Shown: piece after piece, positions 16,477 to 60,922 of the stretch
Numbering within the stretch: position 1 is the stretch's first letter
Layout of the letters: the number at the start of each line of letters is the position of its first letter
Origin: Spirosoma radiotolerans
Lineage (GTDB): Bacteria; Bacteroidota; Bacteroidia; Cytophagales; Spirosomataceae
Reading direction: 5' to 3'
DNA: 64,000 nt
Assembly: GCF_000974425.1 (NCBI RefSeq)
Contig: NZ_CP010429.1
Coordinates: forward strand, 3,348,001-3,412,000
Program-made: the position numbers and the translations under genes
Notes under the pieces: generated by a model
What the model was told of the DNA's origin: nothing
Databases searched by the model: none
What the model saw: the letters and a program-made list of their open reading frames with translations, nothing else

Positions 16477-16604
16477 TTTACGGTTAGTGGTTGCGCATCC
16501 GTAGCCTGTGTCCTCACGGGCCACTCTTCTTGGGAGAAGTGATTGCTGATGCGAAGGTGGCTTGTGAGGACACAGGCCACGGATGCGCAACCACTAACCG
16601 TAAA
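16477..16604. repeat. Long inverted repeat (41-base arms) between co-directional genes
   Basis: Arms 16477-16517 and 16564-16604 are complementary over 41 bases with one mismatch. The 46-base centre contains a second small hairpin (CACTCTTCTTGGGAGAAGTG, 16523-16542). Short repeats of GTTAGTGGTT type and TAAAC/TAACC run on to the next start codon at 16658. Neither arm carries a coding frame. Confidence 0.9.
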
Positions 16605-16657
16605 CTGTAAATCCCAAACCGTAAACCACTAACCATATACCAACTACCGTATACCCC

Positions 16658-17793
16658 ATGCAGACACTCATCATTGGTGCGGGACCGGCTGGGCTGGCGA
16701 TGGCGGGCCAGTTAGCGCAACGCAAGTTGCCGGTTACGGTGCTGGAAGCCAGTGACCACATTGGCCTGTCCTGGCGAAATCATTACGACCGGCTCCACCT
16801 GCACACCGTGAAAGAATACTCCGCGTTACCCCATTTCCCTTTTCCATCCGACTATCCAACCTATGTGTCACGTCTTCAAGTAGTTGATTACCTCGAACGT
16901 TACGCGGAACGCTTTGCCATAAAGCCCCTTTTTAACCAAAAAGTAATTGGCATTCGGCGCCACTCAGCCGATGAAAGCTGGCAGGTCCAAACCGAAACTG
17001 ACCTTTTCACCGCCGATGCGGTTGTGGTAGCCACGGGCTACAACCGGATTCCCAACTTACCTGAACTACCCGGTCAGCGCGACTTTCGGGGTATTATCTG
17101 GCACAGCCATGAATACCGAAATGGAGCGCCTTTTCGCTACGAAAATACCTTGATTGTTGGCATGGGAAACACGGGTGCCGAGCTGGCCCTCGATTTACTG
17201 GAGAATGAATCAATCCCCTTTATTTCAGTTAGGGGCCCGGTTAACATTGTTAAGCGAGAAACACTTGGCCGCCCGACGCAGCCTACCGCCATTTTTTTGA
17301 GCAAGTTCCCAAATTGGTTTTATGACTTCATGGCCAGACTATCACAGCGGCTAACGGTGGGCGACGTGTCGGCTTTTGGCCTGGGCAAACCAACACATCC
17401 CCCTCTTACGATACGCGACGGGGCAAGATTCCGGTCATCGACATTGGCACCCTCGACCAAATTAAGGCCGGAAAAATTACGGTTCTTCCAGGGGTTGAGC
17501 GCATTCATGCCAAAACGGTCACCTTTACCGATGGACGGGAGCTTCCATTCGATGCCATAATTCTGGCAACCGGCTACCGACCGGGGCTGGCAGCTGTTCT
17601 TGGAACCGACCTAGCCGCTACCGTTCTAAATGAGCGAGGTTTCCCCAAAGGACTTTGGTTTAGCGAGCCTAATCTGAAAGGACTGTATTTTCTGGGTTTT
17701 ACAACGCCAGCCACCGGTGTGCTGTATAACCTGAGCATAGACTCAAATCGGATTGCCAATCACATTTTAGAAAACAATTTCGTCCCGTCATAG
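16658..17793 (+). pseudogene. Flavin-containing monooxygenase-like gene, frameshifted
   Basis: FAD/NADP-dependent oxidoreductase of the FMO/YczE-like group, about 378 residues if intact. The first frame (16658-17560) carries the FAD-binding GAGPAGLA at residues 6-13, DHIGLSWRNHYDRLHLHT, VVVATGYN and the NADP-binding GMGNTGAELALDL. From about residue 248 the family sequence continues in another frame: RGKIPVIDIGTLDQIKAGK, FDAIILATGY and GLYFLGFTTPATG, ending at the TAG at 17791-17793. Restoring one C in the C-run at 17399-17403 joins the frames without loss (THPPSYDTRRGKIPV). Either a real pseudogene or a sequencing error in a homopolymer. Confidence 0.88.
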
Positions 17794-17850
17794 TTCTATT
17801 TAGGTAATCAGAGTGATTACGGATCATTCAACGTTATAAACACTACAATC

Positions 17851-18036
17851 ATGAACGAGACAACCATCAAAGGCGGCTGGAACGAATTGAAAGGGAAAAT
17901 CAAACAAGCCTATGGCGATTTGACCGACGATGACCTAACCTATACGGAAGGCCAGGAAGATGAAATGTGGGGCAAGGTTCAGCAGAAGACAGGAAAAACG
18001 AAAGACGAAATTCATAAGGCAATCGCTGATTTATAA
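17851..18036 (+). CDS. CsbD family stress protein
   Basis: Small hydrophilic protein of 61 residues, full length for CsbD. It shows the family pattern: [20 protein letters not shown], then [20 protein letters not shown]. CsbD proteins are induced by general stress in many bacteria; their molecular role is unknown. Upstream lies a small palindrome (GTAATCA-GAG-TGATTAC at 17804-17820) that could be an operator. It has its own terminator. Confidence 0.93.
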
Positions 18037-18051
18037 GCGGCCTATCCAGAA

Positions 18052-18091
18052 ATGAAGAAAGCCGAAACCCTAGGGTTTCGGCTTTCTTCAT
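18052..18091. terminator. Perfect 40-bp palindrome, terminator of csbD-like gene
   Basis: Bases 18052-18071 and 18072-18091 are exact complements around CCCTAGGG with no unpaired loop in DNA. Stem followed by a short T-rich stretch (TATTTAGG). It lies 15 bases after the CsbD stop. Confidence 0.75.
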
Positions 18092-18099
18092 ATTTAGGT

Positions 18100-18179
18100 G
18101 TCCCAAACAGCCTTTGGCTGTTCGAGGAAAAGACTCACGTTAATAGCCTGCTCGTAAACAGTCAGCGGCTGTTCGGGAC
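18100..18179. repeat. Imperfect inverted repeat ahead of the convergent oxidoreductase end
   Basis: GTCCCAAACAGCC (18100-18112) pairs with GGCTGTTCGGGAC (18167-18179) at 12 of 13 positions, 54 bases apart; inner CAGCC/GGCTG (18108-18112, 18116-18120) form a local hairpin. Possibly the terminator region of the oxidoreductase gene on the minus strand. Confidence 0.5.
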
Positions 18180-18188
18180 GAAAACCCA

Positions 18189-19532
18189 TTAAATTCCAGG
18201 CTCCCAGCCTTTTTCGTACTGGCGAGTCCAGAGTTTCATCGCATCGGCATCGCGGATGTGGCCGTTTTTAGAATCAACCGCAAAAGATTTGTTGGTACGG
18301 TAAGCAATGTTCGCTAAATGACAGAGCAGCGTACTTCTGGCTCCTTCCTCAATCGTTGAATTCTGTTTGGCTTTGCCCCGAACGGCGTCGAAGAAATTCA
18401 TCATGTGGAGCGTCGTCATATCGCCACCGCCCCCTAGCGCCGTACCCGACTCAGACCCTTTGGATTTACTTGTTTTAATTACCTTGCCATCGCGGCTGAA
18501 GAGCGTATAGCCGTCGCGATCCACATAAACGGTGCCATTGCTCCCGTAAATGATGGTGCCTCGGTCGCTGCCGTAGGTTTTATGCCCGTTACGGCTTTTT
18601 CCATCCCATTTGATGATCTTATTGCCGGGAAACCGGAAGGTTGCGTCCATTGTATCATATACAGCCCAGCCATCTTCTGGAAATGACCGTTTCGCGGCTT
18701 CCACCGTGACGTATTCAGGAAATTCTACCTGCAGCGCCCAGCGAGCTACATCCAGTTCGTGGGTCGCATTGTTACCCGCTTCGGCGGTGCCATATGTCCA
18801 GCCGTACCAGTGCCAGTTGTAATCCCAGGTGTCGTGGGTGTATGGTACGCGGGGGGCTGGCCCCTGAAACAAGTCCCAGTCGAGACCGTCGGGAGCCGGT
18901 GCTTTTTTAGGAGCCGGAACTTCACCACGGGCATTGGCATAAAAGGCCACCGCTTTGTAAGGCGTTCCGATCACACCATTGTGAATCTGGCCAATGATAT
19001 CAATGGATTCCGGCGCAGAGCGTTGCTGATTCCCCATCTGGATAATTTTGCCGTATTTTTTCTGGAACTCAACCAGAATTTCGCCCTCGCGGGGATTATG
19101 GCTACAGGGCTTTTCCACGTACACGTGTTTCCCCGCCAGCACGGCCATCCAGGTACCCGGCGCATGCCAATGGTCGGGGGTCGCGTTGATCAGCACATCC
19201 ACATTCTTATCGGCAATCACCTTCCGGATATCGTTTTCCAGCTTGGGCGTGTAGGTGATGTGCTTGGAGAATTTTTGCACCGCGGCCTCGCGCTGTTTTT
19301 TCATTACGTCGCACAGATATACCAGCTCGACGTTGCTTTCTTTTTTGGAAATTGGCTCATAGTAAGCCGGTAGGCGCCGACCAAGTCCGGCAATGGCGAC
19401 ATTCAGCCGTTCGTTTGCTCCAATAATTTTAGCGTAGCTTTTAGCCGACATCCCATTTGCCAGCCCGCCAACGGTCAGGCCTGCGGTACCTAAAGCCGCT
19501 GTTTTGATAAATTCTCTTCTTGAGGTTTCCAT
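18189..19532 (-). CDS. Gfo/Idh/MocA family oxidoreductase with Tat signal
   Basis: Sugar or inositol dehydrogenase-like protein of 447 residues. A Tat signal (SRREFIKTAALGTAGL) opens the protein. The Rossmann part follows with NVAIAGLGRR, then ATPDHWHAPGTWMA and KHVYVEKPCSHN, whose EKP motif is diagnostic. The C-terminal part has the Bacteroidota-type GNNATHELDVARWAL. The frame extends 10 codons further to a TTG at 19562, but METSRREF is the natural Tat start. It lies 30 bases downstream of a sugar-isomerase-like gene with a Tat signal; together they look like a periplasmic sugar-modification pair. Confidence 0.9.
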   Translation of the reverse strand: METSRREFIKTAALGTAGLTVGGLANGMSAKSYAKIIGANERLNVAIAGLGRRLPAYYEPISKKESNVELVYLCDVMKKQREAAVQKFSKHITYTPKLENDIRKVIADKNVDVLINATPDHWHAPGTWMAVLAGKHVYVEKPCSHNPREGEILVEFQKKYGKIIQMGNQQRSAPESIDIIGQIHNGVIGTPYKAVAFYANARGEVPAPKKAPAPDGLDWDLFQGPAPRVPYTHDTWDYNWHWYGWTYGTAEAGNNATHELDVARWALQVEFPEYVTVEAAKRSFPEDGWAVYDTMDATFRFPGNKIIKWDGKSRNGHKTYGSDRGTIIYGSNGTVYVDRDGYTLFSRDGKVIKTSKSKGSESGTALGGGGDMTTLHMMNFFDAVRGKAKQNSTIEEGARSTLLCHLANIAYRTNKSFAVDSKNGHIRDADAMKLWTRQYEKGWEPGI

Positions 19533-19562
19533 TGTATTCAGGTTAATAATAGAGTTCGCCAA

Positions 19563-20426
19563 TTAGGCTTTTCGTTTGCCTTGTTTTGTGGCGTCACATA
19601 CACCTTTGAAGTAGCCGACGGATTCGGCAATGCCCGCCAGCGGATCTTTCATGTCTTTTTCATATTCCAGACTGCAACAGCCATCGTACTTGGTTTTGCG
19701 CAGCATGGCCACGAAGGCCGGTATGTCAATCACCCCGCGCCCTAGCTCACAAGTCGTACCTTCTTTAGAAGCTGCGGTTACGTTTTTCAGGTGAATATCA
19801 AAAATTCGCTTGGCGTATTTCTCCAGATCCGCAATCGGATCATCGCCGTATCGCTTGTCATGTCCCATGTCGAAACAAAGCCCGATGCGCGGGTCAAGAT
19901 CCTTCACCGCCGTATACACCGATGTGGCACTGGGAAACAATTTGATATCGGGTCCGTGGTTGTGAATCGCATAGCGCATATTGAACTCCTTCACTTTTTT
20001 GTCGATATAGGGCAAATCCTCCGGATTGGGAATACCGATAATCAGGTTGACACCCACGCGCTTTGCATAATCGAATCCGTTATCGATTTCCTGCTTCGTT
20101 TTCATGTAAATCGGCCCCACGGCGTAGCCTGTTACCCCCGACTGCTTCAGTTTTTCATGAAAGGCCGCAATTTCGTCGGTGGTGCTGGCATAGGGCAGGT
20201 GGAAATCTTTGATGCATAGGTAGTGAACGTCCGTTTTTTTCATCATCTCAAGCGCTGGCTCGAGCTTGAAGTTAACGAAACTAAACCCGGCCATCCCCAG
20301 CTTGAACAAATCATCGCCGGCTGCGCTGCGCGTTTCCGGTGTATTGGCCAATGCAATGGCCGGAGTCATACTAGCCAGGGCCACACAGCTGCCCGTATTT
20401 CTTAAAAATGATCGTCTTGTGGTCAT
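19563..20426 (-). CDS. Sugar phosphate isomerase/epimerase-like TIM-barrel protein, Tat-exported
   Basis: Protein of 287 residues of the xylose isomerase-like TIM barrel (AP endonuclease 2 family). A Tat signal, TTRRSFLRNTGSCVALASM, opens it. Barrel signatures are VNLIIGIPNPEDLPYIDKK, MRYAIHNHGPD, GLCFDMGHDKRYGDDP and DIHLKNV; the His, Asp and Glu residues there are candidates for metal binding and catalysis. Probably epimerises or isomerises a sugar derivative handled by the downstream oxidoreductase. The pair is transcribed from the shared region with the TolC-like gene. Confidence 0.87.
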   Translation of the reverse strand: MTTRRSFLRNTGSCVALASMTPAIALANTPETRSAAGDDLFKLGMAGFSFVNFKLEPALEMMKKTDVHYLCIKDFHLPYASTTDEIAAFHEKLKQSGVTGYAVGPIYMKTKQEIDNGFDYAKRVGVNLIIGIPNPEDLPYIDKKVKEFNMRYAIHNHGPDIKLFPSATSVYTAVKDLDPRIGLCFDMGHDKRYGDDPIADLEKYAKRIFDIHLKNVTAASKEGTTCELGRGVIDIPAFVAMLRKTKYDGCCSLEYEKDMKDPLAGIAESVGYFKGVCDATKQGKRKA

Positions 20427-20660
20427 GCTGACTAACGGGAAACACTACGTTTAGTAGTCTTAAAAAACGGCATGAGCCTTTTTCTACTGGCAGGATCGAA
20501 TTTTGGCTCAATGGCAGTACGATTCGAGCAGCCATTCAACGACTGAGAAGCGCCTTATTCAGGTTCGATACAGCTTTACGGGTGTTTTTCTCCGTTTCAC
20601 AAAAACAAGCGACTTTGCCTTTTCAAAACTTCTTTCATTTGGGTTTCCATTCGAAAAAAG

Positions 20661-21977
20661 ATGAATCGGTTTGCCCTTGCTGTCTTCTTATTTTGTTCAC
20701 TAACGGCTACTGCTCAAACCGTTATAAGCACGGTTCAGGAGGCCCTGACGTTTGTCCGGCGGCACAACCCAGACCTGGTGAATGCCCGTCAAAATCAATT
20801 GGTACAGGCCCAGCAACGCACAGCCACCAAAGCGACCCTGCTACCCCAGGCCCGCTTGTTTACCAATTTCGATTATAACTACGCCCTGCCGGTATCCCTT
20901 GTTCCGGCTGAATTCTTGGGCGGCAAGCCAGGCGAATTTCGAACGCTCCAATTCGGTCTTCCCTATGTGCTGGCCGCTGGAGTCGAAGTAACGGTTCCGA
21001 TAATTAACCGCCCAACCCGCGCTGACCTGGGTATTGTGGAACAAAATCTGCGAATTACAGATGATCAGACGCTGGTTTTGCAGGATGATATCTCGACCCA
21101 AACGGCTCGTGTGTATCACGCGGCCCTTCTGGCCCGGTCGGCCATTGCCATTACTCAGCGGAATCTGTCAGCCGCGGATACACTGACCCAAATTGCCAGT
21201 CAGCGGCTAACGAAGGGCTTGATTGAACCCCTGGAATACAACCGGATACGCTCGGTGCAGTTGACAACGGCGGACGTACTTTACCAGAATGAACTGGCGT
21301 ATACCCGAAACCTCAACCAGCTCAAGCTGTTGCTTGGCTTAACCCTCGCCGATAGTCTGGTGCTTACGGAAGACCTGTCTACCCGCTCACTCGGAACGAC
21401 TAGCTTTACGATACCGGCGAATCCGGTTGAACGCCCCCAGATAACGCTTCAGCAGGCCCGCATCGAACTGGCCCGATTACAACTCAATCGCGAACGATTA
21501 CAACGCTGGCCAACCTTGTCAGCCTATGGTCGATTTACGGAACAGGCGCAACGGAATCAGATCAACTTCCTGAATGCCAATCAGCCCTGGTACCAGATTG
21601 GCGTAACCGGTTTGCAGTTCAACTGGTCCCTGTATACGGGTGGACTTCGCACCAGCAATTTACTACGGGCCCGGCTACAACTAAAACTGGCAGAATCGCA
21701 ATTGATGTATGAACGCAATCGACAGCAGACCGATACAGAAGATATCCGAAATACGTATAACCAGGCCATACGGTCGCTGGAGCTGAACCGACAGAATTAT
21801 GACCTTAGCAACCAAAATGTGCAGATCGCGCTGATCAAATACCGGTCGGGTTTGTTCGCCTACGATCAGTACCTCAACGTATTCAACGAGGCCTTAACGG
21901 CCCAGAACCGGTATCTGAACAATTTGTCAAACGCCTTTATCAACCAAACCATCTTACAGATTAGAAACGGACAGTAG
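20661..21977 (+). CDS. TolC family outer-membrane efflux protein
   Basis: Outer-membrane channel of 438 residues, signal peptide 1-18 (LTATAQT). Two TolC-type coiled-coil halves are visible: the first with LTFVRRHNPDLVNARQNQL, the second with LNRQNYDLSNQNVQIALIKYRSGLFAYDQYL. It lies first in a co-oriented run of adaptor, permease, ATPase, kinase and regulator, so it is the exit duct of that exporter. The start at 20661 gives a complete signal peptide. Confidence 0.92.
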   Translation: MNRFALAVFLFCSLTATAQTVISTVQEALTFVRRHNPDLVNARQNQLVQAQQRTATKATLLPQARLFTNFDYNYALPVSLVPAEFLGGKPGEFRTLQFGLPYVLAAGVEVTVPIINRPTRADLGIVEQNLRITDDQTLVLQDDISTQTARVYHAALLARSAIAITQRNLSAADTLTQIASQRLTKGLIEPLEYNRIRSVQLTTADVLYQNELAYTRNLNQLKLLLGLTLADSLVLTEDLSTRSLGTTSFTIPANPVERPQITLQQARIELARLQLNRERLQRWPTLSAYGRFTEQAQRNQINFLNANQPWYQIGVTGLQFNWSLYTGGLRTSNLLRARLQLKLAESQLMYERNRQQTDTEDIRNTYNQAIRSLELNRQNYDLSNQNVQIALIKYRSGLFAYDQYLNVFNEALTAQNRYLNNLSNAFINQTILQIRNGQ

Positions 21978-22080
21978 ATCAATCCGTTAAGCGCTGAAAC
22001 GTTTCGTCAGCTTTTCAGGCCTACTCCCGCTTGATTCCTGATCCAAAACGAAGTGCCTGAGCTACAGTTATTCACATTCC

Positions 22081-23178: not shown

Positions 23179-23252
23179 CAAATTATGAACGATGAATAAG
23201 TCGTGCGCCCTAGTTTATGTATTCTTCATTCATCACGCTTCATTAACGAAAG

Positions 23253-24503
23253 ATGGATCTACACATCACCTCCCAGATTGCCCAGACGCACCTGCTGGCC
23301 AAAAAGCGGCAGACGCTCGTTGCCATGCTGGGCGTAACCTTCGGTATTGCGATGTTCATTACGATGATTTCGTTTATGCAGGGTGTCAACCAGTTTCTGG
23401 AGGATTCCGCCCTGGACGCCAGCCCACACATTCGGATGTATAACGAAGTGAACACGCAGCGGCCGGGCCTCATCGATGAGCTTCATCCGGGCAACTTCAA
23501 CGTCATTTACCATCAGAAACCAAAAGACGAACAGGCCCGCATTAAAAATGGAATGGCCATTGCCGAACGAATCGAGCGGGAGCCGGGCGTGCTGGGATCA
23601 TCGCCCCAGGTTGCTACGCAGGCCTTTTACAATAATGGTCCTATACAGCTTTCCGGCACGATTTCAGGGGTGGACATTGACCGGGAAAACCGGCTGTATA
23701 AGTTAAGCACCCGGCTCAAGACGGGCAATCTGAATGCCTTGAAGACAAACCCCGATGGCCTGATCATGGGCTCGGTGCTGGCCCGAAAACTTAATGTCGT
23801 TGTGGGCGACAAGGTGACGGTGACAACGCCCAAGGGCGGCATCCGTATTCTGCGCGTAGTCGGCACGTTTGGTTTTGGAGTTGGCACCGTCGATAACACC
23901 AAGAGTTACGCCAATCTGTCGACGGTGCAGGAAATGCTGCAGAAAGACCCGAGCTACATCACCGACATTCACATTAAAATGGTTGACCCCTTGCAGGCAC
24001 TTCCCTTCGGAAAACGGCTGCGAGCCGTGTACGGCTATTATACAGAGGACTGGGCTACGGCCAACACCGCGATTCTGGCGGGCGAGAAGATCCGCAACAT
24101 GCTGACTTACGTCGTTTCCATTACGTTGCTGGTTGTGGCCGGGTTTGGCATTTACAACATCATGAACATGACGGTCATTAACAAAATCAAGGACATCGCG
24201 ATTCTGAAAGCTACGGGTTTTGAGGGCCGGGATATCATCGCTATTTTTCTGTTACAGGCCGCTTTTATCGGTTTGTCGGGTGGATTGCTGGGACTGGGAA
24301 TTGGTTTCGGGCTGAGCTACCTGCTCTCGATCACTCCCTTTGACGCAGGTGATTTTCTGAGCATCAAAACGTTTCCAGTCATTTTTGCACCTAAATACTA
24401 CGGTATGGGTCTCCTGTTCGGCGTAATTACGACCGTTCTGGCAGGCTATTTCCCCTCCCGAAAAGCCGCCCAGGTCGACCCGGTGTCTATCTTGAGAGGA
24501 TAG
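23253..24503 (+). CDS. ABC transporter permease, MacB/FtsX-type
   Basis: Inner-membrane protein of 416 residues with four membrane segments: one near residues 20-45 (RQTLVAMLGVTFGIAMFITMI), and three at the C-terminus (VVSITLLVVAGFGIYNIMNM, IFLLQAAFIGLSGGLLGLGI, and GMGLLFGVITTVLAGYFPSR). A ~230-residue periplasmic MacB core domain lies between them. The terminal AAQVDPVSILRG motif is typical of FtsX/MacB permeases. It is the second half of a tripartite exporter; the substrate is unknown and could be a lipid, peptide or drug. Confidence 0.92.
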   Translation: MDLHITSQIAQTHLLAKKRQTLVAMLGVTFGIAMFITMISFMQGVNQFLEDSALDASPHIRMYNEVNTQRPGLIDELHPGNFNVIYHQKPKDEQARIKNGMAIAERIEREPGVLGSSPQVATQAFYNNGPIQLSGTISGVDIDRENRLYKLSTRLKTGNLNALKTNPDGLIMGSVLARKLNVVVGDKVTVTTPKGGIRILRVVGTFGFGVGTVDNTKSYANLSTVQEMLQKDPSYITDIHIKMVDPLQALPFGKRLRAVYGYYTEDWATANTAILAGEKIRNMLTYVVSITLLVVAGFGIYNIMNMTVINKIKDIAILKATGFEGRDIIAIFLLQAAFIGLSGGLLGLGIGFGLSYLLSITPFDAGDFLSIKTFPVIFAPKYYGMGLLFGVITTVLAGYFPSRKAAQVDPVSILRG

Positions 24504-24511
24504 TTATTTAG

Positions 24512-24572
24512 GTAGGATATAGGATGTATTTCTCAAGCCATACATCTTATAGCCTACATCATACATCATACA
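24512..24572. repeat. Spacer hairpin with short tandem repeats
   Basis: GTAGGATATAGGATGTAT (24512-24529) pairs with 24540-24557 at 16 of 18 positions around a 10-base loop. It is followed by tandem ATCATACATC copies to 24574, just before the ATPase start at 24580. Similar structures fill other spacers in this window. Confidence 0.75.
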
Positions 24573-24579
24573 TCTTTCT

Positions 24580-26278: not shown

Positions 26279-26301
26279 GTACGTAGTACTCGGTTTTGGC
26301 T

Positions 26302-26379
26302 TTCGGTTTACGTTAGACGCGAAGGCTCCCGAATAACTATAAGCACCAGCCGCCCCTATACCGATTAGCGTAAACCGAA
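26302..26379. repeat. Inverted repeat in the kinase-regulator spacer
   Basis: TTCGGTTTACGTTA (26302-26315) pairs with TAGCGTAAACCGAA (26366-26379) with one mismatch, 50 bases apart. The right arm ends six bases before the regulator start at 26386. Confidence 0.6.
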
Positions 26380-26385
26380 TATCCC

Positions 26386-27174
26386 ATGACGATTCTGTTA
26401 ATTGAAGACGAGCCGCTCATTGCCCGGCAACTACAGAAACTGGTTCGTGTCTTGGAGCCAGGAGCTACCATCGATGGACCGCTTGCCAGCGTTCAGAGCA
26501 TTTGTGCCTATTTCAACACGATTCGCTCGACAGCCCGACTAACCCCGGACCTCGTTATCGCTGACATTCAGCTTGCTGATGGCGTGAGTTTCGAGGCTTT
26601 TCAGCAGGTTGGACTCGATGTGCCGGTTATTTTTATCACCGCTTTTGATGAATATGCCATCCGGGCTTTTAAACTGAATAGCATTGATTACCTGCTCAAA
26701 CCCATTGATCCCAACGACTTGAAAACAGCACTGGTCAAATACCATCGTTGGGTGGCAAACGGCATGACTGGTTTCAGTGAACAATTTCAGCAGTTCCTCA
26801 GCCAGATACTCGAAAGACCTACTACCCCACAATACAAACGGCGATTCACGGGGCACTACCTCCGACAAATTATGTCGGTTACCCAGGAAGAGACAGCCTA
26901 TTTTCTCCGCAATGAACTCATCTACCTATACACCAACGACGGTCGGAAATTAATTACCGATTACAAAACGCTCGATGAACTGGAAGAACTCCTCGATCCG
27001 GCCTGCTTCTTCCGGGCGAATCGCCAGTGCCTGGTTCATCTCAATGCGGTTGCGGGCTATCGGCCGCTCGACAACAGTAAACTTCAGATCGCACTGAAGC
27101 CCCCTCATGAAGCGCTGGAGTTGCTGGTTAGCAAAGAAAAAGCCGCTGCTTTTCGACACTGGATCGAAGGGTGA
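26386..27174 (+). CDS. LytTR family response regulator
   Basis: Response regulator of 262 residues. The receiver domain spans 1-125: IEDEPL near the start, the phospho-accepting Asp at 60 in VIADIQLADG, then IFITAFDEYAIRAF and LNSIDYLLKPI. The C-terminal LytTR DNA-binding domain spans about 160-262 (FLRNELIYLYTNDGRKLI, FRANRQCLVHLNAV). It is the partner of the LytS-type kinase directly upstream and probably controls the efflux cassette before it. Confidence 0.95.
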   Translation: MTILLIEDEPLIARQLQKLVRVLEPGATIDGPLASVQSICAYFNTIRSTARLTPDLVIADIQLADGVSFEAFQQVGLDVPVIFITAFDEYAIRAFKLNSIDYLLKPIDPNDLKTALVKYHRWVANGMTGFSEQFQQFLSQILERPTTPQYKRRFTGHYLRQIMSVTQEETAYFLRNELIYLYTNDGRKLITDYKTLDELEELLDPACFFRANRQCLVHLNAVAGYRPLDNSKLQIALKPPHEALELLVSKEKAAAFRHWIEG

Positions 27175-38421: not shown

Positions 38422-38509
38422 TCTTTGCGACCTTTGCGCCATTCTATGAAACTTTACGTTTCGTTTTAGCAAACGTAAGGGCCCAACGGTTTCGCCACCA
38501 ACGCAAAGA
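38422..38509. repeat. Nested hairpin in the DUF4385-folD spacer
   Basis: Outer arms TCTTTGCG (38422-38429) and CGCAAAGA (38502-38509), inner arms TTACGTTT (38454-38461) and AAACGTAA (38471-38478). A tandem pair CTTTGCGAC/CTTTGCGCC sits in the left arm. The right outer arm ends seven bases before the folD ATG. Confidence 0.6.
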
Positions 38510-45090: not shown

Positions 45091-46260
45091 TCATCCGTGA
45101 AAGAAATCCTTCATCTTGTCGAAGAAACCTTTCTCATTTTTATTGGGCTTTGGCTGGAAATTCGGCGAGTTGCGTAGTTTCTCAAGAATACCGCGCTCTT
45201 CGGCCGATAGCATTTTGGGCGTCCAGACGTTGACATGAACCAGTTCATCGCCCCGTCCGTAGCCGTTCAATTCTTTGATACCTTTCCCTTTCAAACGAAG
45301 AATTTTGCCGCTTTGTGTACCGGGTTCAAGCGTGATGCGGGCTTTCCCATCAATGGTCGGCACTTCGACGTTGGTCCCGATGGCCGCGTCCACAAAGTTG
45401 ACGTATAAATCGAATACAACGTTATTACCGTCGCGTTTGAGGTCAGCATCTTCCTCTTCTTCAATCACGATCAGTAAATCGCCGGCCACACCGCCCCGTG
45501 GGGGAACGTTGCCTTTGCCACCAACCGACAATTGGATGCCTTCGGCCACGCCAGCCGGAATCTTGATGGGGATAACGTCTTCCTGCAAGACACGTCCTTC
45601 ACCAAAACAGGCGTCGCAACGGTCGGTAACAAGTTTACCTTCCCCATTACAGGTTGGGCACGTACTCGTTGAGACCATTTGACCGAGCATAGTGTTGACC
45701 ACTTTGCGCGTCTGGCCCGTACCGCTACAGGTCGAACATGTCTGTACAGCCGTTCCGTTTTTGGACCCGTTGCCGCCACAGGTGTTACAGGTGACGTGAC
45801 GTTTTACTTTTATCTTTTTCTCAACCCCGTTGGCAACTTCCTGCAAATTCAGCTTCAGTTTGATGCGCAGATCGGAGCCGCGACGAACGCGCTGCCGACC
45901 ACCACCGCCACCACCCTGAGCGCCCCGGAAGAAACTGCCAAACGGCGAATCGTCGCCGAAGACATCGCCAAATTGGCTGAATATATCTTCCATCGATGGG
46001 CCGCCAGCGCCGTATCCACCTCCGGCTGCACCACCCATTCCAGCATGGCCAAACTGGTCATACCGGGCTTTTTTCTGAGGATCGTTCAAGACATCATAAG
46101 CTTCGGCCGCTTCCTTGAACTTCTCCTCGGCGGTTGGGTCGTCAGGATTCTTGTCTGGGTGATACTTGATCGCCATCTTACGATAGGCTTTCTTGAGGTC
46201 TTCTGTCGAGACGTTCTTATCAACGCCTAGTATTTCGTAATAATCGCGCTTCGTTGCCAT
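45091..46260 (-). CDS. dnaJ: Chaperone protein DnaJ
   Basis: Hsp40 co-chaperone of 389 residues, which stimulates DnaK ATPase and delivers unfolded proteins. J-domain 1-70 with the HPD motif at 34-36, then a Gly-rich linker. Four zinc motifs follow: CNTCGGNG, CSTCSGTG, CPTCNGEG and CDACFGEG. The C-terminal substrate-binding domain closes it. Start at 46260 (MATKRDYYEILGVDKN) is used; the longer frame to 46302 runs through the inverted repeat. Downstream of grpE; dnaK is not in the window. Confidence 0.97.
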   Translation of the reverse strand: MATKRDYYEILGVDKNVSTEDLKKAYRKMAIKYHPDKNPDDPTAEEKFKEAAEAYDVLNDPQKKARYDQFGHAGMGGAAGGGYGAGGPSMEDIFSQFGDVFGDDSPFGSFFRGAQGGGGGGRQRVRRGSDLRIKLKLNLQEVANGVEKKIKVKRHVTCNTCGGNGSKNGTAVQTCSTCSGTGQTRKVVNTMLGQMVSTSTCPTCNGEGKLVTDRCDACFGEGRVLQEDVIPIKIPAGVAEGIQLSVGGKGNVPPRGGVAGDLLIVIEEEEDADLKRDGNNVVFDLYVNFVDAAIGTNVEVPTIDGKARITLEPGTQSGKILRLKGKGIKELNGYGRGDELVHVNVWTPKMLSAEERGILEKLRNSPNFQPKPNKNEKGFFDKMKDFFHG

Positions 46261-46267
46261 ATTTTTG

Positions 46268-46346
46268 AATGAGTGAATGAGTGAATGAGCGAATGAGTGC
46301 ATAGCTGACGCAAGCCTTCATTCGCTCATTCACTCATTCACTCATT
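46268..46346. repeat. Perfect 29-bp inverted repeat of GAATGAGT units between grpE and dnaJ
   Basis: Arms 46268-46296 and 46318-46346 are exact complements with a 21-base loop. Each arm is three to four tandem copies of an 8-base unit (GAATGAGT or GAATGAGC). The left arm ends seven bases from the dnaJ start (46260), the right arm three bases from the grpE stop (46350), so the whole spacer is this structure. No T-run. Confidence 0.92.
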
Positions 46347-46349
46347 AGG

Positions 46350-46955
46350 TTAACTGCCTACAATCACTTTTGCAAACCGAATGACCTTGTCATTCAGGTA
46401 ATATCCTTTTTCAATTTCTTCGATAACTTTTCCTTTCAGATCCTCGCTGGGAGCCGGGAATTGTGTCACAGACTCGTGCAGGTCAGCGTCGAAGGTTTCG
46501 CCTTTGGAAACCATGGGTTTCAGGCCTTTTCCGTCAAGCGTCTTGACCAACTTCGTATAGATTAACGAAACGCCTTCTTTCAAAGCCGCCACATCGTTTG
46601 TATTGTCGATGGATTGCATGGCCCGTTCGAAATCGTCAACAACCGGGATCAGCGCTTTCAATACGCCTTCATTGGCATTGTTAATCAACTCGAGTTTTTC
46701 CTTTGCTGTACGCCGACGGAAGTTCTCAAAATCAGCGTATAAACGGAGATATTTATCTTTCAGTTCGGCTACTTCGCCAGCACTTTTATTGGTGTCCGTT
46801 GGTGCGGCTTCAGCCACGACGCTTTCTGTTGACGTCGTTTCATCGGCTTCGGCTGGCTCTCCACCATTCACCGTTACAGCCTCTTCATTTGTCAGGTTGT
46901 CAGGTTGTTGCGTATCGCTGGATGCCTGATCATCCAAAATGTCTTTATTTTCCAT
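46350..46955 (-). CDS. grpE: Nucleotide exchange factor GrpE
   Basis: Nucleotide-exchange factor for DnaK, 201 residues. An acidic, variable N-terminus (residues 1-60) precedes the long helix ELKDKYLRLYADFENFRRR, the central KALIPVVDDFERAMQS, and the beta-wing with GKGLKPMVSKGETFDADLHE. The 46955 start (MENKDILDD) was chosen; the frame goes on to 47042 without family resemblance. Leads an operon with dnaJ. Confidence 0.95.
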   Translation of the reverse strand: MENKDILDDQASSDTQQPDNLTNEEAVTVNGGEPAEADETTSTESVVAEAAPTDTNKSAGEVAELKDKYLRLYADFENFRRRTAKEKLELINNANEGVLKALIPVVDDFERAMQSIDNTNDVAALKEGVSLIYTKLVKTLDGKGLKPMVSKGETFDADLHESVTQFPAPSEDLKGKVIEEIEKGYYLNDKVIRFAKVIVGS

Positions 46956-53636: not shown

Positions 53637-53707
53637 AACGTCGTTTGGGGTCTGCCCCTACCTGAACGAAGGAATACGGGCTATGCCCTTGATCGAAGGC
53701 GTGTTTT

Positions 53708-53748: not shown

Positions 53749-53771
53749 TTTATACTACACGGGAAGTCATT

Positions 53772-54140: not shown

Positions 54141-54386
54141 TTTATCGACCACCGTTGGTCTGACAAAATAACTACGCTTTCCCGATAGGGTTTTTACATA
54201 ATTGTGGTCTGGTTTCATAAAACCAGCCTACTGACCACCTGACCTTAGGCTAGGAGTCCTGTCAGAGTTACTGTTTATGTAAATCGTTACGCTGGGCACC
54301 GCTTACCCGATCCCGCAATACGGTAAGTAATCAAGAAAAACTTTTGGCAAAGCTGCGCTCTACAGCTGTTTGATTATTGCGATTGC

Positions 54387-55526: not shown

Positions 55527-55716
55527 ACGATTGGTTAGGTTACGCTACTTTAGACTGATTTCTTTTATTATCAGACACATACGCTATCACATGTTAGACT
55601 AATTCTGCCAAAATAGGTATCCAGCTTAGGGTACAGGGTGGCTATTCCGTGGGCTGTTAGGATCGGAACCTCGACCGAACGGTCCTCAGAGAATGCAAGT
55701 GAATGACTAAACCTCC

Positions 55717-56283: not shown

Positions 56284-58619
56284 TAGTTTACTGGTTTAAA
56301 GCGAAATCCAATGTATACCATACGCCCCGTTACAGGTCCCCAGGCTCGGCCTGCCGCATCGAAATCAGGCCCGTAGGGATCATTAGCCGCGAAGATGGGA
56401 TTCAGTTGCCGGAAGCCCGTCAGGTTTTCTCCGCCCAGGTAAATTTCCCAACCTGTCCTAAAGCCCCGGCTAAGCTGTGCATTCAGGTTAGCAAATCCCG
56501 GCGAGTAGTCGGTTGGGGAATTCTGGTTGCTGGCATGCACATAGCCTTCACGCAGGTAATGAATCCGGCGGGGGCCGTTCCATTGTAGCGTTGCGTCAAA
56601 TTTCCATTTATCGTAGGGCAATGCATAGCCTACGTTCAGCAAAAAGCGCTCACGGGGCACCATCATTTTGGGGAGCAGCACCGTATCACCCGCTGGCATG
56701 GCCGTGCTCTGTTGGGTGTCGAAAAGCCGGTAGGCCACTTTCACATCGAACCGCCGGGCAGGCTGTATGTTCAGCTCAGCCTGGAAACTATTGGCAAAGG
56801 AACGCCCGTGATGCGTCGCGTCGCGCAGGTTATAAAAATACAGGAGAGACGAATTTTCGACATTGACCACCAACTGGTTCTGAAAATCAGTGCGGTAGTA
56901 GTCCAGCACCAGCGATGCTTTTTTACCCAGTATCGTCAAGTCTTTTGTTAAACTAAGGCCATAATTCCATGAAACTTCGGGCTTCAGTGGCGTCAGGTTC
57001 CAGTTCACGTAAGGGCCGGCGTTTCTGTTTTGGTACATAAATACGGCCCGTGAGCTAACTAAAAACCCCATGTTTTCGCTGATCGGGTTGGGCACCCGGA
57101 AGCCACGCCCAGCCGAAGCTCTGAGCGTCAGACTTTGGCTCAGGTTGTACTTCACATGCGCGCGGGGCGTCCATTGCGCCCCAAACAGGTTATGGTAATC
57201 AAACCGTCCGCCGAGTACCACCGTCATTTTTTCGGGATAGGTGTACGTATATTCAGCAAAAACCCCCGGCACCGATTCGGTACGACTGGTGGCTAAAGAG
57301 GCCAGATCTTCTTTGTAATCATCCAGCAAATAGCTTAGTCCCGCTTTGTACGTGTGGTTCGTGTTGCCAATGATGTTCTGATAGATCAGGTTTGCGTAGA
57401 TCGTTCGCTGTTGACCATTGTAGGGTCTAAAGCCAATGATGGCCGTTTGATCATGATGAACACCGTTTAAGATCAGTCCCAGGCCTTTATATGGTTTATC
57501 AGGATAAAGAATGGCCGTTTTTGAGAAAAACTCCAGTCGCCGGGTTGTATTGCCGAACTGATACCGGGCGATACCCACTGGCGAACGAAACGTTGACAGT
57601 TGTCCCCCGTCGCGGTCTTCATAAAGCGCCTTCACGCCAAACTGCGCCATAAATCGCTCGCTGCTGTACTTATACCGATTGATGGCGTTGAGCTGGGTGT
57701 ACAAAGGCAAATCACGAAACCCATCGTTGTTCTGATCAATTTCTTTCTGAAGGGTACTGGCATGACCCAGAACGCCCACACTCCACTTTTTAGTAAGCGT
57801 GTGCGACCAGTTTACATTGCCTTCGATTCGCCCGAAACTGTTTGCGTAGCCGTTTAAAAACAGTTTATTCGTGTCATCCGGCTTCTGCAGTTCAATGTTC
57901 ATTTGGCCGCTCATGGATTCGTAGCCGTTCACGACAGACCCCGCGCCTTTGCCCACATCGATGCTGGTGATCCAGGTACCGGGAATGTAGTTTAATCCGA
58001 AGGTAGTGGCCAGTCCGCGCACGGTCGGAATATTCTCGATATTCGTCTGAACGTATTGGCCACCCAGTCCCAGAAACTGAATTTGTTTCGCCCCAGTAAC
58101 GGCATCACTATACGACACACTCACGGAAGCATTGGTTTCGAAGCTCTCTGACAGATTACAACAGGCCGCTTTGGCGAGGGTTCGCTGGGTGATCAGTTCG
58201 GTTTGAATCGGGTTGATCCGGTCAACCTGCCCCGGCGCTCCCGATACTGTTACCTCCTGTAAAGTGCGTTCTGAACGCAGCGTCACCATTAGCTCGGTCG
58301 ATGGATCGGTAACCGTTAGGGTATCTGCCTGATAGCCAACATAGCTAATGATCAACCGGTTTTCGGTTGGATGCTTTGGTAATTGAAAAAGCCCGTTCGC
58401 ATCTGTATTGGTACCCAGGGTCGTGCCAGCCCAGATGACCGTCGCGCCAACCAGAGGTACGCGTTTACTGTTGACGGTTTCACCGACGCTTCCCCGAACC
58501 AGTGTTTTTTTTTCGACAAGCGTGGTATCTGATTGTGCCTGCGCGGGGGTCTTTATGGCGAATAAGCCAACCCCTAGCCCACTGATAAGCAGGACAATCC
58601 GTAAAGAAAGAAAGTACAT
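56283..58619 (-). CDS. TonB-dependent receptor with Cys-Cys plug, metal-associated
   Basis: Outer-membrane receptor of 778 residues. Signal peptide 1-28, then CarboxypepD_reg-like domain (VRGSVGETVNSKRVPLVGAT, LIISYVGYQADTL). The plug starts near residue 130 and has the Cys-Cys pair at 153-154 (AKAACCNLSESFETN), unusual for TonB receptors and well placed to bind a soft metal. GLGGQYVQTNIENIPTVRG and INVGKGAGSV-like text follow. A 22-strand barrel ends in FRFKPVN. It is the first gene of a unit with the HMA/AraC regulator and may import copper or a copper complex. Confidence 0.88.
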   Translation of the reverse strand: MYFLSLRIVLLISGLGVGLFAIKTPAQAQSDTTLVEKKTLVRGSVGETVNSKRVPLVGATVIWAGTTLGTNTDANGLFQLPKHPTENRLIISYVGYQADTLTVTDPSTELMVTLRSERTLQEVTVSGAPGQVDRINPIQTELITQRTLAKAACCNLSESFETNASVSVSYSDAVTGAKQIQFLGLGGQYVQTNIENIPTVRGLATTFGLNYIPGTWITSIDVGKGAGSVVNGYESMSGQMNIELQKPDDTNKLFLNGYANSFGRIEGNVNWSHTLTKKWSVGVLGHASTLQKEIDQNNDGFRDLPLYTQLNAINRYKYSSERFMAQFGVKALYEDRDGGQLSTFRSPVGIARYQFGNTTRRLEFFSKTAILYPDKPYKGLGLILNGVHHDQTAIIGFRPYNGQQRTIYANLIYQNIIGNTNHTYKAGLSYLLDDYKEDLASLATSRTESVPGVFAEYTYTYPEKMTVVLGGRFDYHNLFGAQWTPRAHVKYNLSQSLTLRASAGRGFRVPNPISENMGFLVSSRAVFMYQNRNAGPYVNWNLTPLKPEVSWNYGLSLTKDLTILGKKASLVLDYYRTDFQNQLVVNVENSSLLYFYNLRDATHHGRSFANSFQAELNIQPARRFDVKVAYRLFDTQQSTAMPAGDTVLLPKMMVPRERFLLNVGYALPYDKWKFDATLQWNGPRRIHYLREGYVHASNQNSPTDYSPGFANLNAQLSRGFRTGWEIYLGGENLTGFRQLNPIFAANDPYGPDFDAAGRAWGPVTGRMVYIGFRFKPVN

Positions 58620-58692
58620 GAGTTTGCTGATTAATGAATACGTAGAACAAGCCCGTGTTTAAAACACCGGCCAGAACAACTTAATCAGCGTA

Positions 58693-59142
58693 TCAAAGGA
58701 GGAGGCTCTGAACGAGCGTCAGAATATCGCGCCCGGAAAGCGAAGGGGGCGACGAAAAGAGCGAAACAGTAGCTGATTTCCCAGCAAAGACGACCTCGAT
58801 AATCCAGGCCATAACGGCCACAAAGCCGGTTATTACCGCTTCGGTAACAGTCTTGACAAACTTGGCAACGAACTGGCTCAACGACGACGAGATGTCGACG
58901 TTTTCATAGTGCTGATCGTCCTGACAGCAGTCGGCTTTTTTGACAACCGTTTGCTGCTCGGGCAGTGGCTGTTTGCTGGTCGCACAACCGGATGATGATT
59001 TTACCTCGCTAAAGGCAACAACCATCGTTTTTTTCTTGCCACGCATCTGACACGAATGCTCCACCAAACCAAAGCCGGTACTGCTTAGCAGCACAACGCA
59101 GGCCATGAGTAGGTTGAAGAATTGGAACAGGTTACGTTTCAT
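58693..59142 (-). CDS. HYC_CC_PP family membrane protein
   Basis: Protein of 149 residues of the Bacteroidota-specific HYC_CC_PP family (short H..C, CC and PP motifs). LMACVVLLSSTGFGLVEHSC forms an N-terminal membrane segment or signal; the H..C motif is EHSC. KADCCQDDQHYENVD holds the CC motif; LFSSPPSLS the PP. A second hydrophobic helix near residues 95-120. The family tends to sit with metal transport genes; function unknown. Start at 59142 was chosen; the frame extends to 59253. Lies just upstream of the TonB receptor gene on the same strand. Confidence 0.85.
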   Translation of the reverse strand: MKRNLFQFFNLLMACVVLLSSTGFGLVEHSCQMRGKKKTMVVAFSEVKSSSGCATSKQPLPEQQTVVKKADCCQDDQHYENVDISSSLSQFVAKFVKTVTEAVITGFVAVMAWIIEVVFAGKSATVSLFSSPPSLSGRDILTLVQSLLL

Positions 59143-59256
59143 GATGGGGCAAATATCAGCATGGAACGAATTCAACGCAAGTCTTGACTCCTGAAAGTCA
59201 GGAATTTCGTAAAAAAAGAATGCCATTCTGTAAAAGGATGGCATTCGATTCAACAG

Positions 59257-59775
59257 TTAGATAGTTTCCGGCTCGGGGCTAAGCACCTCGCTAAGCGGGC
59301 GAAGGTTTCGCTGCTCCTCTTCATTATACGGAAATATTTCCAGAATCTTAGTTGTATTGACATCCGTGATCTCGAATGGATCAAGGGCGCTTTTCAGGCT
59401 TATTTCGACTTGCTCATAGGCCTGCTTGGGCGTTTCAGCATTGACGAGCATTACACTGGGCGTTTTCTTTTGTTTGCCCGTTTTTTCATCGTCGGTGATA
59501 AACATGGCCTTCACTTTAAACCAGGTTTCACCCCCCTCTTCGATGTGAAACACGTCGGCCAGTTTCATACGCGAAATGTTTGTAATCTCGAAGTCGGGTG
59601 TATTGGCAGCAATCTCCTGATAAAGACGAGCCTCCGCATCGGTATAGCTAACGGCATCCACCAGATAGGCTTCCGTTACGGTTTTCTGCTTGATAAACTC
59701 TTCATTCCGGGTGCCGACATTCGAGTCGTCAATGGGCTGCTGATAGCGTATTTTCCCGAGAAACCAGTTGGGCAT
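59257..59775 (-). CDS. DUF4494 family protein
   Basis: Cytosolic protein of 172 residues of the Bacteroidota family DUF4494. It shows MPNWFLGKIRYQQ, TVTEAYLVDAVSYTDAEARL, ETWFKVKAMFITDDEKTGKQ and VNAETPKQAYEQVEISLKSA. Function unknown. The start at 59775 is chosen because the family begins there. It is downstream of the DECR-like gene, on the same strand, separated by an inverted repeat of GAAAGAGC units. Confidence 0.87.
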   Translation of the reverse strand: MPNWFLGKIRYQQPIDDSNVGTRNEEFIKQKTVTEAYLVDAVSYTDAEARLYQEIAANTPDFEITNISRMKLADVFHIEEGGETWFKVKAMFITDDEKTGKQKKTPSVMLVNAETPKQAYEQVEISLKSALDPFEITDVNTTKILEIFPYNEEEQRNLRPLSEVLSPEPETI

Positions 59776-59837
59776 TTTGAAAGGTTTTGATACGTAAATA
59801 GAACAAAAATCTGTTGGCAAAGGTGCGGAATAATGGT

Positions 59838-59904
59838 GAAAGAGCGAAAGATTGAAAGAGCGAATTCACCGGCTGGTTTCGCTCTTTCAATCCTTCGCTC
59901 TTTC
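59838..59904. repeat. 27-base inverted repeat of GAAAGAGC units overlapping a coding end
   Basis: Arms 59838-59864 and 59878-59904 are complementary with one A/G difference; loop 13 bases. The units are GAAAGAGC-type and are flanked by short repeats. The right arm overlaps the last codons and stop of the DECR-like gene (59887), so the C-terminal NSERAKD is encoded by the repeat. Confidence 0.9.
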
Positions 59905-60798
59905 GCTATTTTTACTCGCCCGGTTGGCTTGTTTGATGGTCTGCTCAATCATATCCCATTGTTCGGTCGTGACTTTATCGAGGTGACTGAACTCACCCGC
60001 CATCAGCACTTCGCCCCCATCGATGGTGATACTTTCGCCAGTAATGTATCCTGAATAATCTGACAACAGGAAAGCCGCCAGGTTCGCCAGTTCGCCATGC
60101 TCGCCAACCCGGTGGAGTGGAATGCGGCTCGTGGGGTCCATCATGCTGGCCAAGGGTTCGGGAAAGAGCCGATCCCAGGCACCTTTGGTCGGAAACGGGC
60201 CCGGCGCAATGGCGTTGAGCCGGATGCCATATTTGCCCCATTCGGCGGCCAGCGATTTGGTCATAATCAGGGCACCGCCTTTGGCAACAGCCGAGGGCAC
60301 CACATAGCCCGAGCCCGTTGTGGCGTAGGTGGTGGAAATGTTCAATACAGTCCCCGGAATTTTATTGGCGATCCAGTATTTACCCACGGCCAGCGTAAAG
60401 TAATAAGTGCCGCGCAAAACGATGTCGACAATGGTATCGAACGCCTTATAAGACAGCCGCTCGGTAGGGCTGATGAAGTTCCCGGCAGAATTATTGAGTA
60501 AGCCATTCAGCTGGCCAAATCGCTCAATCGTTTTCTGGATAACATGCTCGATTTCGTCTGTTTTACGAACGTCGCAGGCAAGGGCCAGTACAGTCCCCGA
60601 TCCATTGTTCTGTTTCACCTCCTCCATCAACTCGTTGGCGGTTTCATCCAGTACTGCCTGACGGCGACTACAGATTGTGACGTTGGCCCCCAGTTGCAGT
60701 AAATAGCGGGTCACCGATTTACCCAGGCCCGTGCCGCCCCCGGTCACGATGATCGTTTTCCCTTTTAGCGCATCATCGCGCAGCATTCCAGTTGTCAT
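59887..60798 (-). CDS. 2,4-dienoyl-CoA reductase-like SDR
   Basis: Short-chain dehydrogenase of 303 residues. TGGGTGLGKS near 20-29 binds NADPH; NNSAGNF replaces NNAG. The catalytic region is TTYATTGSGYVVPSAVAKGG, with Tyr and Lys 15 residues apart, the spacing of mitochondrial-type 2,4-dienoyl-CoA reductase and not of classical SDRs. LAAEWGKYGIRLNAIAPGPF and ELANLAAFLLSDYSGYITGE match that group. Reduces dienoyl-CoA in unsaturated fatty acid degradation. It lies just downstream of a dienoyl-CoA isomerase-like gene. The C-terminus is encoded within an inverted repeat. Confidence 0.85.
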   Translation of the reverse strand: MTTGMLRDDALKGKTIIVTGGGTGLGKSVTRYLLQLGANVTICSRRQAVLDETANELMEEVKQNNGSGTVLALACDVRKTDEIEHVIQKTIERFGQLNGLLNNSAGNFISPTERLSYKAFDTIVDIVLRGTYYFTLAVGKYWIANKIPGTVLNISTTYATTGSGYVVPSAVAKGGALIMTKSLAAEWGKYGIRLNAIAPGPFPTKGAWDRLFPEPLASMMDPTSRIPLHRVGEHGELANLAAFLLSDYSGYITGESITIDGGEVLMAGEFSHLDKVTTEQWDMIEQTIKQANRASKNSERAKD

Positions 60799-60807
60799 AA
60801 TTAATTT

Positions 60808-60922
60808 TGAATGAGTGAATGCTTAAATGAGTGAATAAAATACCCGACTTCTCCGGCTGAAATAAACGAGTAATTGTTTTGTACGCTATTCATTCAATCA
60901 CTCATTCGTTCATTCACTCATT
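60808..60922. repeat. Imperfect inverted repeat of GAATGAGT units between isomerase and reductase genes
   Basis: TGAATGAGTGAATG...AAATGAGTGAATA (60808-60837) pairs in part with 60888-60922 (AATCACTCATTCGTTCATTC in the right arm). The units match those in the grpE-dnaJ spacer. One end lies 10 bases from the reductase start, the other four bases from the isomerase stop. Confidence 0.75.

Follow-up and report, generated by a model that had tools for sequence, protein, structure and literature searches.

Hairpins of short tandem words behind the stop codons of Spirosoma genes

We will consider a window of 64,000 nucleotides (nt), positions 3348001-3412000 of a Spirosoma genome (G000) which consists of a single 7,029,352-bp contig. 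Several of its intergenic spacers contain hairpins with arms made of short tandem words. They have a defined position behind stop codons, a base polarity, a word structure and arms which change together. A preliminary description of the window had listed seven such spacers. Genes were called with a purpose-built hexamer scorer; its stop codons are firm and its start codons are accurate to tens of bases. The features to be discussed are the following.

16477-16604, plus strand: composite hairpin, arms of 48 nt (16477-16524 and 16557-16604) and loop of 32 nt, from the inverted-repeat scan.
24512-24557, plus strand: heptamer hairpin with words GATGTAT/GATATAG, arms 24512-24529 and 24540-24557.
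26302-26379, plus strand: weak hairpin of CGGTTTACG words, perfect arms of 11 nt, loop of 56 nt, scan score 11.
38422-38509, plus strand: weakly structured spacer with words CTTTGCG/CGCAAAG, an unconvincing member.
46268-46346, minus strand: perfect 29-bp stem of GAATGAGT octamers, loop of 21 nt which includes GCGTCAGC, folding z -12.3.
59838-59904, minus strand: 27-bp stem of GAAAGAGC octamers, folding z -10.0.
59887-60798, minus strand: anchor gene for the comparison among species, flanked by two hairpins and matched in 39 of 39 genomes.
60810-60922, minus strand: hairpin of GAATGAGT octamers with a long loop, folding z -5.3 (for 60808-60922).
61838-61990, no strand assigned: long inverted repeat in a divergent spacer, arms of 45 nt, loop of 63 nt.

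The folding z compares the RNA folding of each stretch with 200 of its dinucleotide shuffles. Five of the seven spacers (16477, 24512, 46268, 59838 and 60808) fold strongly, with none of the 200 shuffles as stable. The two others, also claimed as inverted repeats at first, are marginal. Both have z -2.7, with 5 of 200 shuffles as stable for 26302-26379 and 2 of 200 for 38422-38509. The latter is missed by the window scan at score 11, and neither this spacer nor its orthologue in species G013 has an inverted repeat of score 12. The strongest fold is 16477-16604 (z -16.3), in the spacer 16453-16657 and 24 nt past the stop codon; it has GGTTAGTGG-type words outside and a GTGTCCTCACGGGCCAC module inside. 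The hairpin 24512-24557 starts 8 nt past the stop codon at 24503 and is followed by more CATACATC words up to about 24572; z is -5.8 for 24512-24572. On the minus strand, 46268-46346 is 3 nt past the stop of gene 46350-46955(-) and 7 nt ahead of the called start at 46260, and 60810-60922 is 3 nt past the stop of 60926-61765(-).

In the hairpin 59838-59904 the 5' arm contains the stop codon of 59887-60798(-), which we take to be a short-chain dehydrogenase-type gene. This arm (59878-59904) encodes the stop codon and the last residues of the gene, and relatives of its product in the same genus align only up to residue 297-302 of 303. Hairpin turnover at this place may rewrite the C-termini of the upstream gene. 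None of 4227 Rfam families matches the window at gathering scores, and the window has no transfer RNA.

A scan of the window at a score threshold of 11 finds 19 inverted repeats. Ten of them are in spacers between co-directional genes and 7 between convergent genes; one lies in a divergent spacer and one within a gene. That all such repeats lie between genes on the same strand had been stated from the seven listed, and it is true only of them. One of the convergent repeats, 4256-4289, owes its placement to a weak gene call; two others, 9904-9940 and 18052-18091, have short loops and are flanked by A/T. The divergent repeat 61838-61990 lies in the middle of its spacer and has the second longest arms in the window. 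It is an exception to the depletion in divergent spacers described below and is absent in G008, the single relative compared.

The same orientations were surveyed in 1.2 Mb of G000, taken as three 400-kb blocks. In spacers of at least 20 nt there are 102 inverted repeats of score 14 or more in 513 same-strand spacers, 68 in 137 convergent and 13 in 157 divergent ones; when the spacers shorter than 3 kb are shuffled, about 0.2 repeats are obtained overall. When only spacers of 60-300 nt are taken, long-loop repeats are present in 62 of the 332 same-strand, 23 of the 90 convergent and 6 of the 99 divergent spacers, and short-loop repeats in 18, 28 and 0 of them. The word class, which we define as C-poor hairpins, was counted in blocks of seven Spirosoma genomes, in spacers of 50-400 nt. 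It is present in 84 of the 962 same-strand spacers; for convergent spacers the count is 15 of 219 and for divergent ones 7 of 262. Same-strand spacers do not differ from convergent ones (p = 0.42) and differ from divergent ones (p = 0.0005). Since word hairpins are common in same-strand and convergent spacers and rare in divergent ones, they mark the 3' ends of genes and avoid the 5' ends. The comparison proposed at the outset, same-strand against other spacers and against shuffled sequence, thus shows repeats far above the shuffles and few in divergent spacers, but nothing special in same-strand ones. An operon-specific control device was rejected, as convergent spacers carry hairpins equally often.

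Escherichia coli K-12 was used as a control (200 kb, 72 spacers, the same gene caller retrained on E. coli). In G000 a z below -4 is found in 106 of 374 same-strand, 60 of 99 convergent and 5 of 100 divergent spacers; in E. coli the values are 16 of 52, 2 of 9 and 0 of 11. The share of structured same-strand spacers is alike, and we have rejected their mere frequency as something unusual. The same-strand spacers of G000 differ by their share of very strong folds and by their long perfect arms: z is below -6 in 61 of 374 of them and in 4 of 52 in E. coli, where a scan of the 72 spacers at score 12 gave two inverted repeats with arms of at least 14 nt.

The position of the hairpins is well defined. 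Among the 84 same-strand word hairpins, 79% start no more than 10 nt away from the stop codon of the preceding gene, as compared with 45% in random placement (maximum of 1000 trials 61%). Only 25% are within 10 nt of the next start codon, again with 45% expected at random. The median distances are 6 nt to the stop and 20 nt to the next start, and of the 22 word hairpins in spacers of at least 130 nt, 20 start within 23 nt past the stop. Anchoring to the start codon was considered and rejected: the hairpins sit at the upstream stop instead. Most of the listed repeats had been said to end no more than about 10 bases from a start codon; this is so in five of the seven with the boundaries given at that time and in fewer with the arm ends of our scan, and as a general rule it does not hold.

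The hairpins fall into two classes. Long-loop arms (n = 190) have a self-identity of 0.382 at lag 7, as compared with 0.295 when shuffled, and of 0.321 at lag 8 (0.297 shuffled); short-loop arms (n = 122) have 0.277 at lag 7 (0.269 shuffled). In 57 C-poor arms the best lag between 5 and 10 is 7 in 32 cases, 8 in 16, 9 in 7 and another value in 2. The loops of word hairpins are commonly 10-60 nt. Long-loop hairpins also have a polarity: in 179 same-strand cases the 5' arm has more G than C in 140 and more C than G in 27. The totals in the 5' arms are 1336 G and 641 C, a ratio of 2.08, and 1299 A and 1264 T. Cases are few in species G001 (7 vs 1) and G018 (14 vs 5). G comes first and C last on either strand, because a palindrome reads the same on both. 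Short-loop hairpins (n = 93) have no base polarity, with 46 cases of G over C and 37 of C over G. They look like ordinary terminators: rich in convergent spacers, with more T-tracts and no polarity.

Some loops share the core GCTGACGC. It is 17.7-fold enriched in loops as compared with spacers, yet it is present in only 12 of 282 loops, so that it does not define the hairpin class. The sequences GCTGACGC/GCGTCAGC are found in loops of several genomes (for example at 46297-46317 of the window), often as an inner palindrome, and may be a separate nested element.

We will now compare the same spacer, or slot, in different species. In slot 46261-46349 the hairpin is made of GAATGAGT octamers in G000, AGAATGAAGAGTGT heptamers in G013, AATGGATAATGAGT heptamers in G015 and AAAGAGTG octamers in G023; all four start 3-5 nt past the stop codon. 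Slot 60787-60925 has its upstream neighbour in 24 of 24 species. Two spacers longer than 1 kb were dropped; of the 22 measured, 17 have z below -3 and 16 below -4. By eye about 15 of the 17 hairpins have octamer-type words, with G013 and G016 lacking them, so that word turnover occurs partly inside one family. The hairpin-less species G008, G009 and perhaps G006 show by eye an apparent C-rich remnant of the 3' arm, which suggests that the 5' arm was lost first. In 101 conserved same-strand gene pairs, from species pairs which are not independent, both spacers have z below -4 in 30 cases (22.8 expected, p = 0.005, Spearman 0.40). It seems that what is inherited is the shape and the place more than the sequence.

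The two arms of a hairpin change together. In the 22 spacers of slot 60787-60925 the 5' half matches its own 3' half with a score of 17.2, the 3' halves of other species with 10.1 and their 5' halves with 9.2 (own against other 3' half, permutation p = 5e-5). The own match is higher in 17 of 22 species, and the five in which it is lower are the five without hairpin. In the 14 octamer species alone the scores are 21.2 for own and 14.6 for other arms (p = 5e-5). Octamer arms can also be located by word pattern only. Of the 36 plus/minus pairs obtained in this way, 17 agree at every variable letter, where 4.1 are expected (p = 5e-5). These pairs come from the listed matches of G000 and G432 and from a part of those of G004, three of the 33 genomes in which the pattern occurs. 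For overlapping matches the innermost pair was chosen, in eight cases by hand; the choice increased the count in four of these cases, decreased it in one and had no effect in three.

A comparison of G001 with G018 points in the same direction. It uses spacers of 30-400 nt, and aligned spacers with less than 50% identity were dropped. Long-loop stems have diverged by 0.109-0.110 per site, as compared with a background of 0.120. Both partners have changed in 24 of 386 pairs, where 4.6 are expected, and 18 of these are Watson-Crick pairs; in the reverse direction there are 18 double changes in 396 pairs (4.8 expected), 13 of them Watson-Crick. The suggestion that the common feature is the structure and not the sequence is supported, and extends across species through the slot comparison, arm covariation and own-arm matching. 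The idea of a local duplication product has support in part: the arms are tandem words and vary together in cis.

The word families are dispersed through the genome. The counts which follow include the locus itself and both strands of each palindrome, and are lower bounds, since 40 candidates were scored per search. There are at least 33 matches to 16470-16640 in its own genome, at least 19 to 24508-24578 and at least 56 to 59820-59920, and the better of the full-length matches elsewhere in the genome have an identity of about 75-85%. The listed repeats had been considered not to be copies of one dispersed repeat; this is partly correct, since 26295-26386 is single copy and matches only itself, and these three loci belong to dispersed families. 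Three units of the octamer GAAWGAGY give 41 pattern matches in G000, and none for the reversed control; the octamer is present in 33 of 36 genomes of the genus, the reversed control in none. A heptamer pattern is found in 9 of 395 genomes of the phylum (44 matches); its breadth is weak, because the reversed control also matches 5 genomes (12 matches).

The octamer was also searched in named genomes, where at least 120 stretches were found; 80 listed loci were analysed. Among these are Spirosoma, Fibrella, Fibrisoma, Larkinella, Dyadobacter, Hymenobacter, Pontibacter, Emticicia and other Bacteroidota, and also the cyanobacteria Tolypothrix, Calothrix and Brasilonema, whose three loci have no partner arm. 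An inverted repeat overlaps the octamer in 40 of 48 loci of Cytophagales and in 2 of the 32 others, when records are classed by their titles and an unspecified 'Bacteroidetes bacterium' is placed among the others. Many of these 32 loci are head-to-tail arrays. Near 1.09, 1.20 and 3.58 Mb of G000 (loci L029-L048 and L009-L028) there are hairpins with words CACAGAGG/CACGGAG. These words occur in unrelated phyla and are perhaps another widely shared vocabulary.

G000 has two matches to the transposase domain Y1_Tnp. The first (L099, about G000:C1:3300158-3300502) is in an open frame of 198 amino acids, with a GTTTACGGTTTGTGG word hairpin about 0.2 kb beyond. The second (L100, about G000:C1:4672594-4672794) is presumably RAYT-like. 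It is flanked on both sides by GGTTTCTCAAAACC/GGTTTTGAGAAACC palindromes which do not belong to the word family, and a similar palindrome is present in another spacer of the genome. There may be here a true pair of a repetitive extragenic palindromic (REP) element and its RAYT, beside the word hairpins.

Hairpins of this kind are known from other bacteria, although the preliminary description knew of no name for them: the short tandemly repeated repetitive (STRR) hairpins of cyanobacteria and the REP elements of enterobacteria are of this type (PMC2670836, PMC12306157). STRR are described in parts of PMC2670836 and PMC2408588 as intergenic, hairpin-forming tandem words, mostly of 7 bp, in filamentous cyanobacteria, for example between hupS and hupL; roles in transcript stability or translational coupling are proposed there, and the function is left unsettled. 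The Spirosoma hairpins resemble them by their tandem words of about 7 bp, by their location between genes and by the octamer itself, which the three listed cyanobacteria share. They differ by their host, one of the Bacteroidota and not a filamentous cyanobacterium, by the use of both heptamers and octamers, by their anchoring to stop codons, by the polarity with G first and by the co-evolution of the arms measured across species.

According to PMC12306157, which cites its reference 17, those REPs of E. coli which lie no more than 15 nt from a stop codon are reported to stall the ribosome and to reduce expression; RAYT-associated REPs are described as palindromes with a GTAG or CGTC tag at one end (PMC3733652). 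Like REPs, the Spirosoma hairpins are palindromic, intergenic and placed at the 3' ends of genes, near stop codons. However REPs share a consensus, whereas in Spirosoma the arms differ by species in one slot and the word families differ by slot; the Spirosoma stems are also longer and have a word structure. The original papers are reportedly those of Mazel and others for STRR and of Liang and others for stop-proximal REPs. A third case is the TAACTGA heptamer, found in Beggiatoaceae, Cyanobacteria and some Bacteroidetes (PMC4679880, in part). It is likewise intergenic and common to Cyanobacteria and Bacteroidetes, but its repeats are direct, with one fixed heptamer and one inverted case, and in its main genome most of them precede start codons. 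The kind of element is thus already known. We found in the open-access literature no description of such hairpins for Spirosoma or Cytophagales, nor of a genus-wide set which is stop-anchored, polarised, built of words and co-evolving.

We favour, by little more than an even chance, the interpretation that we are dealing with RNA hairpins which are placed close behind stop codons at gene 3' ends, are of the REP and STRR type, have their arms rewritten jointly, and probably protect or tune the upstream message. The target of the RNA hairpin would be the upstream cistron, which it would most likely shield from exonucleases as a barrier on the 3' side. It could also modulate ribosome release and the read-on into the next cistron, because it starts within the footprint of the terminating ribosome. 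A combined role as 3' barrier and at the site of termination is our best guess, held slightly above an even chance.

Other explanations have to be considered. The hairpins might be transcription terminators, some with a weak or no U-tract, which close the upstream transcription unit. Like terminators they are enriched at 3' ends and in convergent spacers (z below -4 in 60 of 99 of these), and among the convergent repeats of the window are short-loop ones flanked by A/T, such as the two named above; in slot 59775-59887 a conserved promoter-like block is seen by eye past the hairpin in G015, G013 and G023. However a T4+ tract near the 3' end is found in only 12 of 84 word hairpins, as compared with 35 of 93 short-loop ones, and the promoter motif TAnnTTTG is not in excess in their spacers: in a length-matched comparison it is present in 9 of 76 word-hairpin spacers and in 59 of 437 spacers without hairpin. 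Half of the hairpins are within 20 nt of the next start codon, a distance which is too short for a promoter. Word hairpins also have longer loops and a polarity which is absent in the distinct short-loop set of the same genome. We consider this explanation unlikely, and for the word class we have rejected the possibility that all hairpins are terminators. The motif itself is found in 83 of 262 divergent (14 expected), 138 of 962 same-strand (37) and 6 of 219 convergent spacers (8) in the seven genomes, as it should be for a promoter motif.

The hairpins might also be selfish or neutral mobile palindromes, similar to REPs or to miniature inverted-repeat transposable elements (MITEs), which settle at tolerated 3'-end sites without any host function. 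Dispersed families, a vocabulary common to 33 of 36 genomes of the genus and the avoidance of promoters agree with it, and one of the two Y1 transposase genes lies between inverted palindromes. But those palindromes, beside L100, belong to another family. The word hairpins share words without a fixed sequence, each locus with its own mirrored variant; their stems vary together after divergence and their placement at stop codons is tighter than random. The probability of such an origin appears low to us.

A third possibility is a by-product of local mutation: slippage would give tandem words and template switching inverted copies, with no selection at all. The mechanism is published (PMC8794818, in the parts which concern it), stems diverge at the background rate, and hairpin-free direct octamer arrays are present, among the listed loci, in other Bacteroidota and in other phyla. 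The strong placement at stop codons, the depletion in divergent spacers and the persistence in slots argue against it, and make it improbable in this pure form. Finally, it is very doubtful that the hairpins are intercistronic bridges which join a stop codon to the next start for termination and reinitiation: in slot 46261-46349 the hairpin is separated by 3 nt from the stop and by 7 nt from the start (3 and 10 in G013, 5 and 7 in G023), but in G015 its distance to the start is 273 nt, the hairpins are about as common in convergent spacers, which have no downstream start, and fewer than at random end within 10 nt of one.

Several observations weigh against the protective hairpin with jointly rewritten arms which we favour. 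The similar share of structured spacers in E. coli means that presence alone requires no special function. In slot 60787-60925 the hairpin is absent in 5 of 22 species. Slot 59775-59887, which flanks the anchor gene on its opposite side, could be compared in the 8 of 24 species in which the neighbour was found, and z is below -4 in 3 of them; the hairpin of G000 itself escapes this count, since its arm includes the stop codon. The persistence of slots is weakened by the dependence among species pairs, and at z below -5 it is not significant (17 vs 13.9 expected, p = 0.21). A coarser test of cis against trans pairing in 31 octamer elements gives 15.2 vs 13.7, which is not significant (p = 0.09). 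In the comparison of G001 with G018 the short-loop stems have the same excess of double changes (7 vs 1.3 and 15 vs 3.3 expected), and the same-strand word-class hairpins are few, 4 and 7; the covariation is therefore a property of the 3'-end hairpins of the genus at large. The clustering of paired changes, which template switching would lead one to expect, is slight, 22 of 51 vs 14.2 in the null model (p = 0.035), in a test on a single species pair with the two loop classes and the two directions pooled. To this is added the A and T content of the 5' arms, which we discuss below.

As to how hairpins which may protect the message would be formed and kept, template switching has been proposed to create and perfect RNA stems in ribosomal RNA and microRNA genes (Monttinen and Loytynoja 2022, PMC8794818). 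According to the same source, if the 5' base decides the correction, one should find more G-C than C-G and more U-A than A-U. The Spirosoma stems agree with it by their multi-base compensatory changes and by the excess of G-C over C-G according to the side of the stem; they differ by the presence of many intergenic hairpins per genome and by the lack of the A/U half of the asymmetry, since A and T are nearly equal in the 5' arms. We suppose that slippage among words lengthens the arms, that template switching between the inverted arms copies one into the other, and that selection would maintain both the pairing and a hairpin behind the stop codon. A wider interpretation, tentative and plausible rather than probable, is that the heritable unit of these genus-wide hairpins is a shape at a place and not a sequence: selection would hold a hairpin directly past the stop codon, slippage and template switching directed by the 5' arm would rewrite both arms, the loci would move among shared words of 7-9 nt, and the order of G first and C last would be the fingerprint of the copying direction.

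The origin and upkeep of long perfect RNA stems under mutation is considered an open question in PMC8794818, which treats ribosomal RNA and microRNA genes. In Spirosoma each genome has many hairpins between its genes, and orthologous slots can be followed in two dozen species; the stems diverge at the background rate and yet remain paired, with a strong base asymmetry between their sides. If the wider interpretation is true, it would be a large natural experiment on the origin and upkeep of such stems. The Spirosoma hairpins also join two unexplained literatures, that of the cyanobacterial STRR hairpins and that of the stop-proximal REP elements, with a role at the end of translation which can be tested.

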